DNA from: Acidobacteriota bacterium
GTDB lineage: Bacteria > Acidobacteriota > Terriglobia > Terriglobales > Acidobacteriaceae
Direction: 5' to 3'
Assembly: GCA_028876335.1 (NCBI GenBank)
Contig: JAGWSG010000073.1
Span: 1 to 40,427, forward strand
Length of the DNA stretch: 40,427 nt
Part shown: piece after piece, positions 29,458 to 32,674 of the stretch
Position numbering within the stretch: the first letter of the stretch is position 1
How the letters are laid out: each line of letters begins with the position of its first letter
Notes under the pieces: generated by a model
Seen by the model: only the letters and a program-made list of their open reading frames with translations
What the model was told of the DNA's origin: nothing
The model's database searches: none
Program-made: the position numbers and the translations under genes

Positions 29458-30999
29458 CTATTCGCTGACCACAGCCCCCGGCAGCACCACATTCCGCTGC
29501 CTCGCCACCTTTCGCGTCATCACCTGTAAGTGATACCCCATCACCGCCAGCGTCATGGCCGCGCCAAAGCAGTGCCGGTACCGCGTTGCCGCCGTCACCA
29601 CAAACTTCCAGTAGCTCCACTGCGCGCGCCCAAACACACCCTGCCGCACAATCGACATCACCAGCGCACGCATGTTCGCGCGCGTCAGCAGTCGTTCTTC
29701 ATGTTGCACGCGTGTCCGCTTCTCCGGCTTGGGATGAGTCCTGTTCAAATACACCTTCACTCGCTCGTAGTACGCGCCGCTGGCATAAATTCGCTTCAGC
29801 ACGGAGCGGTAGCCTTCCACCAGCCGCGCCGCATCCATGCGCGGCAAAAAGTTCAGGCTCACTGAGGTGTTGTCCCCCGCATCGTTGTGCACAATGCGCC
29901 CTTCGCTGCGCAACCGTCGGAACAGTTGCGTTCCCGGCATCGCCTGCAGCAGCCCCACCATTGCAATGGGTATCCCGCTCTCGGTGATGAACTCCACCAT
30001 GCGGTCGAAGATGTCCTCGCGGTCCGTGTCGAAGCCCAGAATGAAGCCGCCCATCACCTGCATCCCGTAGCTCTGGATGCGCGCCACGCTTTCCAGCAGA
30101 CTGCGCCGCGTGTTCTGGAGCTTGTTGCTTGCCTTCAGCCCCTGCTCGTCCGGAGTCTCAATCCCCAGAAATACTGACTTGAAACCCGCGTCTTTCATCA
30201 GCTGCATCAGCTCTTCATCGTCGGCCAGGTTCAGTGAGGCTTCGGTAATCAGCGGAAATCCGCCATCGCTCCGCGCGCGCCACTTCGCCAGCGCTGCCAG
30301 CAGCACTTTGGCCCGCACCTTGTTGCCAATAAAGTTGTCGTCCACAATAAACACGGAGTCACGCCAGCCCGCGCGCTTCAATTGATCAAGCTCGGCAAGC
30401 ACCTGCTCCGTTGTCTTGGTCCGCGGCCGTCGCCCGTAAATTTCAATAATGTCGCAGAACTCGCAGTTGAACGGGCATCCGCGCGAGTACTGCACCGTCA
30501 TCGTCGAGTAGCGATTCATCTTGATCAGGCTCAAGTCGGGCAGGGGACTGTTTTCCATCGTCGGCCGCTCCTCTGCCTTGTAAACAGACTTCGCCGTGCC
30601 CGCTTCCAGCGCGCACGCCACCTCTGCCATCAGCTCTTCAGCCTCGCCAATCACCACGTGATCCACACCTAGCTCCGCTGCTGCGACGCTGCTGGTAATC
30701 GGTCCGCCTACCACCGTGCGCACGCCCAGTGCCCGGCATCGCGCCACAATCGCTGCCAGCGCCTTCTGTTGAATCTGCATTCCGCTCAGCATCACCACAT
30801 CGGCCCACTTCAGGTCTCGCTCCCGCAGTTGCTCCACGTTCGTGTCCACCAGCTTCTTCTGCCAGTGCGAGGGCAGCAGCGCCGCCACCGTCATCAGCCC
30901 CAGTGGAGGCTGCGCCGCACGTTTGCCCAGAAACTTTAGCGCGTGTTTGAAACTCCAGTACGTGTCAGGAAATTGTGGATACACAAGAAGCGCATTCAT
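29458..30999 (-). CDS. Radical SAM protein with N-terminal B12-binding-like domain
   Basis: 513 residues from the ATG at 30999 (GAGGAG 9 bp upstream); an upstream in-frame start lacks a site. Residues 1-140 form a Rossmann-like cobalamin-binding-type domain. The radical SAM cluster motif Cys-x3-Cys-x2-Cys is at C175, C179 and C182 in SRGCPFNCEFCDIIEIYGRR, followed by FIVDDNFIGNK and VFLGIETPDE. The C-terminal 130 residues are a DUF4070-like domain with a hydrophobic end. Relatives include hopanoid C2-methylase (HpnP) and many B12-dependent methyltransferases. The usual cobalamin-ligating His motif (DxHxxG) is not evident. A lipid-modifying role is possible but unproven. Confidence 0.9.
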   Translation of the reverse strand: MNALLVYPQFPDTYWSFKHALKFLGKRAAQPPLGLMTVAALLPSHWQKKLVDTNVEQLRERDLKWADVVMLSGMQIQQKALAAIVARCRALGVRTVVGGPITSSVAAAELGVDHVVIGEAEELMAEVACALEAGTAKSVYKAEERPTMENSPLPDLSLIKMNRYSTMTVQYSRGCPFNCEFCDIIEIYGRRPRTKTTEQVLAELDQLKRAGWRDSVFIVDDNFIGNKVRAKVLLAALAKWRARSDGGFPLITEASLNLADDEELMQLMKDAGFKSVFLGIETPDEQGLKASNKLQNTRRSLLESVARIQSYGMQVMGGFILGFDTDREDIFDRMVEFITESGIPIAMVGLLQAMPGTQLFRRLRSEGRIVHNDAGDNTSVSLNFLPRMDAARLVEGYRSVLKRIYASGAYYERVKVYLNRTHPKPEKRTRVQHEERLLTRANMRALVMSIVRQGVFGRAQWSYWKFVVTAATRYRHCFGAAMTLAVMGYHLQVMTRKVARQRNVVLPGAVVSE

Positions 31000-31486
31000 G
31001 GCTGCGAACTCCTCTGGAAGAGAGGGCTGCGTAAGCGCAACGCGGAAGGGCAATCCTGCCAACGTTTTCGTACCCATCCACAGTCGCGATCGAGTGTGGC
31101 CGGCTCATTCCGCATCCATTCTCCCACCACCCGCAGCGCCGCACCATTCAAAATTGCTCAATTTGCAGCCAGATTCGCTCCACAAAACCGGACTCTCAGT
31201 CCAATGTGCACTGCCCGCTGTCTACTGTCGTATACTTTATCCATGCACCACGCGGCTCTCATCTTCGCCACCCCCATCGCTGCAGCCGCAGCGCGTGCCG
31301 CGGCCCCGGCCGCCTAGATACCGCCTCACCTCATCCCAATTCAAACCAGTTCCACTTCAGGTGCACTCGCGCGCATCTACGCGCCCGGCCCCTGACCCTG
31401 AACACTTTTTACCCTTGCCTCGAAAGGTAACAATCGGGGTCCCAATCGACAGGTCTTCGTCGATGGGGTGACATACTGAGGTAGTC
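31000..31486 (+). promoter_or_regulatory. Divergent gap: alaC leader region
   Basis: A 487-bp region between the radical SAM gene and alaC. Bases 31231-31236 (TATACT) are a good -10 box, followed 6 bp later by the ATG of an alanine-rich 24-codon ORF. Further down lie GC hairpins at 31300-31313 and 31369-31384, and a 10-bp stem with one mismatch at 31441-31450/31459-31468 that ends 10 bp before the alaC GAGG site. The arrangement is what an amino-acid attenuator looks like, but no T-run terminator is obvious. Confidence 0.4.
31243..31317 (+). CDS. Putative alanine-rich leader peptide upstream of alaC
   Basis: A 24-codon ORF ending in TAG, with alanine in 13 positions, including a run of five (residues 13-17), then Arg, then three more Ala; it begins MHHAALIF. 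No Shine-Dalgarno precedes it. Instead a TATACT -10 box ends 6 bp before the ATG, so transcription would start at or next to the start codon and the message could be leaderless. The next gene is alaC, an alanine-forming aminotransferase, so ribosome stalling at Ala codons could report alanyl-tRNA supply. GC-rich DNA favours Ala codons by chance, so this remains a hypothesis. Confidence 0.4.
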   Translation: MHHAALIFATPIAAAAARAAAPAA

Positions 31487-32674
31487 ATGGAAGAGTTTTC
31501 CCGCATTCAGCGTCTCCCCGCATACGTCTTCAACATCACCGGCGAAATGAAAATGGCCGCCCGCCGCCGCGGTGAAGACATCATCGACTTCGGCATGGGC
31601 AACCCCGACGGTGCCACGCCCAAACACATCGTCGACAAGATGATCGAGGCCGCGCAAAAGCCCGTCACCCATCGCTACTCCGTCTCCAAGGGCATTCCTC
31701 GCCTTCGCAAAGCCATCTGCAACTGGTACAAGACTCGCTACGACGTCGACCTCGATCCCGATTCCGAGGCCATCGTCACCATCGGCTCCAAAGAGGGCAT
31801 CGCCCATCTCTGCCTCGCCATTCTTGACAACCGTGACACCATTCTCGTCCCCAACCCCAGCTACCCCATTCACATCTACGGCCCTGTCATCGCCGGCGCG
31901 CACGTCGTCTCCGTTCCCGTGCACGATCAGGAAAAATTCCTCGCTCAGCTCGAGGAAATCATCCCCCGCATGGTGCCGCGCCCCAAGGCGCTCATCTGCA
32001 ACTTCCCGTCCAACCCGACCACCCAATGCGTCGATCTACCCTTCCTCGCGCGCCTCGTGGAACTAGCCCGTCAGTACGGCTTCTGGCTCATTCATGACCT
32101 CGCCTACGCTGACATCGCCTTCGACGGCTACAAGCCGCCCAGCGTACTTGAGGTCCCCGGCGCCAAAGACGTCGCCGTCGAGTTCTTCACCTTGTCGAAG
32201 AGTTACAACATGCCCGGCTGGCGCGTCGGCTTCATGGTCGGCAACCAGAAACTCGTCGCCGCTCTCGGCCGCCTCAAGTCCTACTTCGACTACGGCACCT
32301 TCACGCCCATCCAGGTCGCCAGCATTCTCGCGCTTGAAGGCCCCCAGGACTGCGTCGCAGAAATCTGCGAAACCTACCGCCTCCGCCGCAACGTTCTTGT
32401 GGAAGGCCTCAATAAGCTAGGCTGGCAAGTGCCCATGCCCAAGGCAACAATGTTCGTCTGGGCAGAGATTCCGGAGCAGTACCGCCACCTTGGCTCTCTC
32501 GAGTTCTCCAAGCTCCTGCTCACAGACGCCAAAACCGCCGTCAGCCCCGGCATCGGCTTCGGCGACTACGGCGACAGCCACGTCCGCTTCAGCCTGATCG
32601 AAAATGAAGAACGCACCCGCCAGGCCTTGAGAGGCATCAAGCAAATGTTTGCCAGGCCCGCCTTGGTTGGTTGA
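31487..32674 (+). CDS. alaC: Alanine transaminase AlaC (glutamate-pyruvate aminotransferase)
   Basis: A 395-residue class I aminotransferase that follows E. coli AlaC closely from end to end as I remember that sequence: [20 protein letters not shown] near the start, [13 protein letters not shown] at 33-45, [12 protein letters not shown] near 97, the PLP lysine in [20 protein letters not shown] near 236, and [20 protein letters not shown] near 350. AlaC makes alanine from pyruvate with glutamate. GAGG lies 6 bp before the ATG. The long leader with an alanine-rich ORF suggests feedback control. It ends 15 bp from the convergent gene at 32690. Confidence 0.95.

Follow-up and report, generated by a model that had tools for sequence, protein, structure and literature searches.

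An alanine-rich leader ORF conserved upstream of alaC in one genus of the Acidobacteriaceae: a candidate leader-peptide attenuator with a predicted leaderless start

The control of biosynthetic genes by leader peptides is well known for several amino acids. In mycobacteria, leaderless short ORFs with polycysteine runs have been reported (Canestrari et al. 2020, as described in a passage of PMC9031893 and listed among the references of PMC9094748 and PMC13236596), and a passage of PMC9031893 states that the speed of translation on the run of codons for this single amino acid controls the downstream genes. For alanine, one listing of leader-peptide control was found in the open-licence PMC literature, in an excerpt of PMC8079986: the leader peptide alaL, predicted upstream of alaS in Streptomyces lividans TK24, with 6 Ala of 22. 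A described attenuator of alaC was not found in this literature. Two further systems are related in architecture; excerpts of PMC1262725 describe the LEU element of actinobacterial leuA, and those of PMC10272879 the uORF attenuator of ilvB-II in Corynebacterium.

Here we describe a short ORF located upstream of alaC in a stretch of 40,427 nucleotides from an Acidobacteriota bacterium; "the window" refers to this whole stretch. As in general amino-acid attenuators, a short ORF rich in the amino acid that is the product precedes a biosynthetic gene and is conserved in relatives. It resembles the mycobacterial polycysteine ORFs, as passages of PMC9031893 describe them, in being a putatively leaderless short ORF with a run of codons for one amino acid; regarding the start at the 5' end, a TATAAT-type box lies 6-7 nt before the start in the relatives and the same spacing occurs at other genes. 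The likeness is one of descriptions, and the two systems differ in that the amino acid is alanine, the gene is alaC, the phylum is another one, and a hairpin at the end of the ORF and a CACCTCATC block are present. With alaL it shares an alanine-containing leader peptide predicted to control an alanine-related gene; in contrast, alaL as listed in PMC8079986 controls the alanyl-tRNA synthetase, has fewer Ala codons, belongs to another phylum and is given for one genome, whereas the gene considered here encodes a transaminase and the leader is conserved over 36 genomes of one genus, in one of them degraded. The LEU element likewise has an upstream ORF with a codon run and a proposed pairing with the Shine-Dalgarno sequence (SD), but in the excerpt of PMC1262725 it is the codon run that pairs with the SD, while in the folds made here the leader ORF accounts for 0.07 of the SD pairing. 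The ilvB-II uORF is also rich in the regulated amino acids, its lengths are multiples of three, and there is one site per genome before one gene; however, the excerpt of PMC10272879 shows an intrinsic terminator with a stem and a U-run, and the window leader has none. Given that a single genus holds alaC orthologues with and without the leader, whose starts are of the SD-led or of the leaderless type, gain and loss of the candidate attenuator can be compared directly and could be tested with small reporters.

The leader ORF, its promoter and its conservation

The features of the region are collected in Table 1. Those that the sequence-only reading had described, a 24-codon ORF with 13 Ala codons whose ATG begins 6 bp after TATACT and which precedes alaC, were borne out: the spacer between the box and the ATG (31243-31245) consists of the six bases TTATCC, the product is MHHAALIFATPIAAAAARAAAPAA, the stop codon TAG occupies 31315-31317, and AlaC scores 714 bits against the alanine transaminase model NF006033, whose cut-off is 647. 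The gap between the end of the ORF and the alaC ATG (31487) is 169 nt. The left neighbour is divergent and encodes a protein with B12-binding and radical SAM domains. In the window the leader frame is open further upstream, with a first GTG at 30943 and another ATG 39 nt upstream of the chosen start; unlike these, the start adjoining the -10 box is the one common to the relatives.

Table 1. Features of the leader region and alaC (positions in the window)
Feature	Positions	Strand	Basis
-10 box TATACT of the predicted leader promoter P1	31231..31236	+	sequence; TATAAT in most relatives
Leader ORF, 24 codons + TAG, 13 Ala codons, predicted leaderless	31243..31317	+	sequence and relatives
Hairpin GCGGC-CCCG-GCCGC at the ORF end	31300..31313	+	conserved in relatives
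C-rich, G-poor stretch after the stop codon	31318..31367	+	base composition against control windows
CACCTCATC block, 9 nt after the stop	31327..31335	+	conserved in relatives
CATACT, -10-like box, possible second promoter P2	31472..31477	+	comparison with relatives
Shine-Dalgarno GAGGT of alaC	31478..31482	+	GGAG or GAGG within 14 nt in relatives
alaC, alanine transaminase	31487..32674	+	NCBIfam NF006033 above cut-off; Pfam PF00155

A search of 80 genomes of the same genus yielded 67 alaC matches in 64 genomes, 58 of which were used, after nine in which the gene start was missing had been dropped. A leader ORF is present in 33 of these 58 upstream regions, on the same strand as alaC and 6-7 nt after a TATAAT-type box; the 33 ORFs have 20-32 codons, 7-16 of them for Ala, a terminal Ala run, and an end located 61-308 nt from alaC. 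The shortest of them (L029) contains two N. The distribution is patchy, with 24 of the 58 loci missing the leader. Outside the genus it was not found: 36 alaC upstream regions, fetched out of 80 other-genus alaC matches so as to represent each of the 19 other Acidobacteriaceae genera with a match, all lack it. A leader finder applied to 79 of 80 named relatives (L089 came without upstream sequence) was positive in at least 6, all of which were equated with same-genus genomes; its counts are lower bounds, as it takes starts naively and missed at least one known leader, that of L076. The conservation in relatives on which the sequence-only reading had made its proposal depend thus holds within the genus and fails beyond it.

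The nucleotide motif of the ORF end was also searched blind to frame, to avoid choosing ORFs by their Ala content. It was found in 32 of the 58 same-genus loci and in 0 of the 36 from other genera. At all 31 of these loci that have a normal start codon, the ATG or GTG placed 6 or 7 nt after the box is in frame 0 with the end motif, and this agreement holds across ORF lengths of 20-32 codons; the remaining one, L039, has ATT at the place of the start, likewise in frame. At L053 and L054 an additional TATAAA box is accompanied by an out-of-frame TTG or CTG near the leader spacing. Over the 33 leaders, Ala makes up 44% of the residues in frame 0 and 8-9% in the other two forward frames, which speaks against the earlier reservation that GC-rich DNA easily yields Ala codons, and upstream of the hairpin the third codon bases are variable. 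In 25 of the 33 ORFs the second residue is Gln or His, so that they begin with ATG/GTG-CA (31243-31248 in the window).

Regarding the start of the leader, the genome of the window has the exact pattern TATAAT-N6/7-ATG seven times (the backward control, once), and all seven sites open frames of at least 107 codons, among them what we take to be lexA, ligA and larE. Of 35 such sites in three further genomes, 30 were inspected; a frame of more than 120 codons begins at 22 of them, an alaC leader at 3 and another short frame, with no Ala run, at 5. The backward pattern gave 3 for 10 sites in one genome and 2 for 13 in another, and was high, 10 for 12, in G076. The genes that recur in these three genomes are presumably lexA, uvrB, purE and apt. 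Because the pattern opens long frames, the spacing has the appearance of an ordinary start signal for this group. The predicted leaderless genes that carry the pattern are met repeatedly in the genus, and we assume them to be lexA, uvrB, ligA, purE, apt, larE and an NtrY-like kinase. The leaderless start that had been predicted for the window ORF continues to be the best reading, with the box 6-7 nt before the start in the relatives.

Association with alaC and the conserved end of the leader

A covariance model of 54 positions was built from 30 of the 33 leader ends (alignment A1; L013, L021 and L025, with shifted stops, were excluded), since an earlier pattern search had been too strict, with 12 matches in the 80 genomes, all at alaC. 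The model gave 37 matches of at least 34.6 bits, in 36 of the 80 same-genus genomes; the next 31 were all at or below 28.2 bits, and neither of the two of these that were read adjoins alaC. Thirty-six of the 37 strong matches lie directly before an alaC start and on its strand; the other, in G025, is at a contig end, the contig stopping 124 nt beyond it. They include the 33 known leaders and the degraded one of L039, all 34 of them located 37-284 nt before a same-strand alaC match, as well as one further leader with its alaC, in G066, and a second alaC start, L159, in G036, with a presumably kdsB-like gene upstream. G036 has two leader-bearing alaC starts in different settings, which may reflect a duplicate or a contamination. 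As the 36 matches that can be judged are all before alaC, none is before another gene. The leader loci show several upstream settings, and the one with the radical SAM gene occurs at 5 loci with the leader and at 6 without it; given that the setting differs between loci, it is alaC that the leader goes with, and not the adjacent genes.

At the degraded locus L039, decay has struck the start (ATT) and stop (TGG) of the ORF together with the post-stop block and the SD (GTAG), and alaC is still open. It is very improbable that all this merely reflects GC-rich DNA with Ala-like triplets that happens to lie upstream of alaC. GC-rich codons do give Ala readily, and the leader is confined to one genus, as such an origin would allow; but chance is contradicted by the frame test, by the codon table, by the specificity of the model and by this joint decay. 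On the evidence of sequence comparison, the leader ORF is coding, is conserved in the genus and belongs to alaC.

The end of the ORF forms a hairpin with the consensus GCGGC-N4-GCCGC, whose stem is identical in 30 of 30 aligned loci and whose loop is UNCG in 16 of the 30. When Ala codons were permuted synonymously within each ORF (1000 permutations), the full stem appeared in its standard position in a mean of 9.2 and a maximum of 18 leaders, against 30 of the 33 observed. In the three others it is displaced: in L013 it sits one codon further up, and at L021 and L025 the loop contains the stop codon, yet the stem is still kept with a noncoding 3' arm. The hairpin, as judged from these sequences, is kept beyond the demands of the codons, and a constrained sequence describes it as well as a constrained fold does. 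Of mutually exclusive hairpins, as in trp/his-type attenuators, the alignment of leader ends A1 shows this one, invariant and with no covariation in the 30 loci; given that the stem never varies, covariation cannot support it.

After the stop codon two further elements are found. The sequence CACCTCATC, allowing one change, is present a short distance past the stop in 28 of 33 leader loci; when it was sought anywhere in the last 330 nt of the 24 loci without a leader, 1 had it. The single G that precedes it is invariant in A1. In L039, which was omitted from the block and SD counts as degraded, the sole near-match to the block, CACGTCATC, falls inside the former ORF. In addition, the 50 nt after the stop have a C/G ratio of at least 2 in 24 of the 33 leaders and in 9.6% of 240 control windows taken from loci without the leader. 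Elsewhere in the leader C is likewise abundant (0.36), but the G content there is 0.22 as compared with 0.15 in the post-stop stretch. Between the leader and alaC, many loci (L035, L060, L061 and others) carry runs of short repeats of the CAGTG or CCCTGA type.

Such a conserved hairpin and block could act alone, and it is conceivable, if rather unlikely, that the ORF is a constitutively translated leader or a small protein that tunes expression or mRNA stability and does not sense alanine, its Ala run serving some other purpose, for example a nascent-chain pause. In favour of this, positions 1, 2, 5 and 6 counted from the stop are almost always Ala (in 32-33 of the 33 leaders); however, position 3, within the RNA loop, can be P, A, S, T, R, L or C, the N-terminal half of the peptide is hardly conserved, the downstream gene makes alanine, and no strong model match precedes another gene.

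Start type of alaC and a possible second promoter

The SD of alaC goes together with the leader. GGAG or GAGG is present within 14 nt of alaC in all 33 loci with a leader and in 3 of the 24 without it, 18 of which have a TANNNT box 6 nt before the alaC ATG, the layout of a leaderless gene; in a sister genus several loci were also seen, by eye, to have -10-like boxes close to the alaC start. On the AlaC tree, which is weakly supported (16 of 63 inner branches starred), the leader is clustered yet patchy, with 12 changes among the same-genus rows; of the independent contrasts of leader against SD, just two fall on branches with good support, a number that does not allow a p-value, and Fisher tests, which take no account of relatedness, are not relied upon here. 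Joint gain and loss of leader and SD is what is expected if a long mRNA is translated into AlaC.

Of the 33 leader loci, 31 have a box of the form [TC]ANN[CA]T at a distance of 9-10 nt from the aligned start of alaC, on its upstream side, against a background of about 2% per place, which suggests a putative second promoter, P2. An mRNA from P2 would start 2-3 nt before the alaC AUG, downstream of the SD.

Proposed attenuation and its output step

We consider it likely that the ORF is the leader peptide of an attenuator of alaC that senses charged tRNA-Ala and has a predicted leaderless start; the alanine-packed leader probably lets the cell sense a shortage of alanine. An alanine attenuator of alaC was also the proposal of the sequence-only reading, which stands as the best explanation for the 33 of 58 genus loci, except for the 10-bp stem that it had made part of the layout. 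The terminal hairpin, the CACCTCATC block, the link between leader and SD and the second -10-like box are additions to that reading. We infer transcription from P1, translation of the leader, a response to alanine with its direction, and an output step, in the following way. P1 would start the mRNA at or next to the leader AUG, and the short ORF would be translated without an SD. With ample alanine, the ribosome would pass the Ala codons, unfold the terminal hairpin, stop and leave, and the freed C-rich post-stop stretch would reduce the expression of alaC, with Rho-dependent termination as the most likely means. When alanine is scarce, the ribosome would be held on Ala codons at the hairpin or beside it, which would keep the stretch downstream from acting; the long mRNA would be made and AlaC would be translated from its own SD. 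P2, which touches alaC, may give a basal, nearly leaderless mRNA. Several points weigh against an attenuator: P2 would bypass the leader control, the leader is confined to one genus, and within it the distribution is patchy (24 of 58 loci lack it); the stem without covariation, the lack of an intrinsic terminator in the window leader and the folds with a masked ribosome count against it as well.

For the output step, Rho would be the leading candidate, its chance falling a little short of even; masking of the SD would be somewhat less probable, and some other mechanism appears unlikely. An intrinsic terminator of the trp/his type was rejected for the window: as had been noted from the sequence, no terminator with a T-run is found on the + strand of 31050-31600, and no U-run follows the terminal hairpin in the 30 loci of A1. 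A known riboswitch, T-box or other Rfam family was also discarded, with 0 matches up to an E value of 1 in 30950-31700.

In a translational version, the kind of control that the sequence-only reading had thought more likely, the post-stop stretch would pair with the alaC SD and hide it, and translation of the leader would decide whether it does so; we regard this as a possibility to be held with reserve. For mycobacteria, a passage of PMC9031893 describes leaderless short ORFs that bring about translational attenuation, and the tie of the SD to the leader (33/33 with it, 3/24 without it) would agree with it. For the window, the folds assign a probability mass of 0.81 to pairing between the SD and the 32 nt that follow the stop, and ACCUCA could form a full duplex with UGAGGU; over 32 of the 33 leaders (L029 was left out of the folds on account of its N bases) the mean pairing between SD and post-stop stretch is 0.46, as compared with 0.25-0.38 in 10 sets in which the stretch was shuffled. 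However, the overall accessibility of the SD is like that of shuffled leaders (0.18 against 0.17), the energy of the duplex is no better than in the shuffles, and a leader's own pair differs little from foreign ones (-6.87 against -6.67 kcal/mol). Nor did the SD open in folds masked for a ribosome stalled at two places or standing at the stop: its mean unpaired fraction was 0.18 in the free RNA, 0.19-0.20 with a stalled ribosome and 0.23 with the ribosome at the stop.

The fixed place of the C-rich block with respect to the stop, together with its free distance to alaC, would fit an early event such as Rho loading better than SD masking. The Rho version of the attenuator has a weakness of its own: the C-rich stretch would stay exposed if the ribosome stalled on the first Ala codons. 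It is conceivable, though less likely than not, that the output is an unusual one, neither an intrinsic terminator nor plain SD masking, in which a hairpin over the last codons and the single-stranded CACCTCATC block after the stop take part, and which may have evolved in one genus by the addition of a promoter, a leader and an SD to a formerly leaderless alaC.

The 10-bp stem before the ribosome-binding site exists, in an imperfect form (31441-31450 with 31459-31468, 90% complementary). As a switch the stem of 31441-31468 was rejected, being a dispersed palindrome that occurs in no relative's leader: the other 57 upstream regions of alaC in the genus lack it, and a near copy lies at positions 135-173 of the window (E 4e-7), while contigs C144, C231 and C164 hold weaker copies that can be recognised by eye (E 0.01 to 0.2). 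About five related palindromes, three of them weak matches, were counted in the genome of the window. They are of the type GGGGTCC..GAC-AGGTCTTC-GTC..GGGGTG, and copies were located at 31441-31468 and 135-173 of the window, at 1501-1536 of L006, at 1214-1235 of L007 and at 1044-1079 of L008; as judged by eye, the arms differ between copies and still pair.
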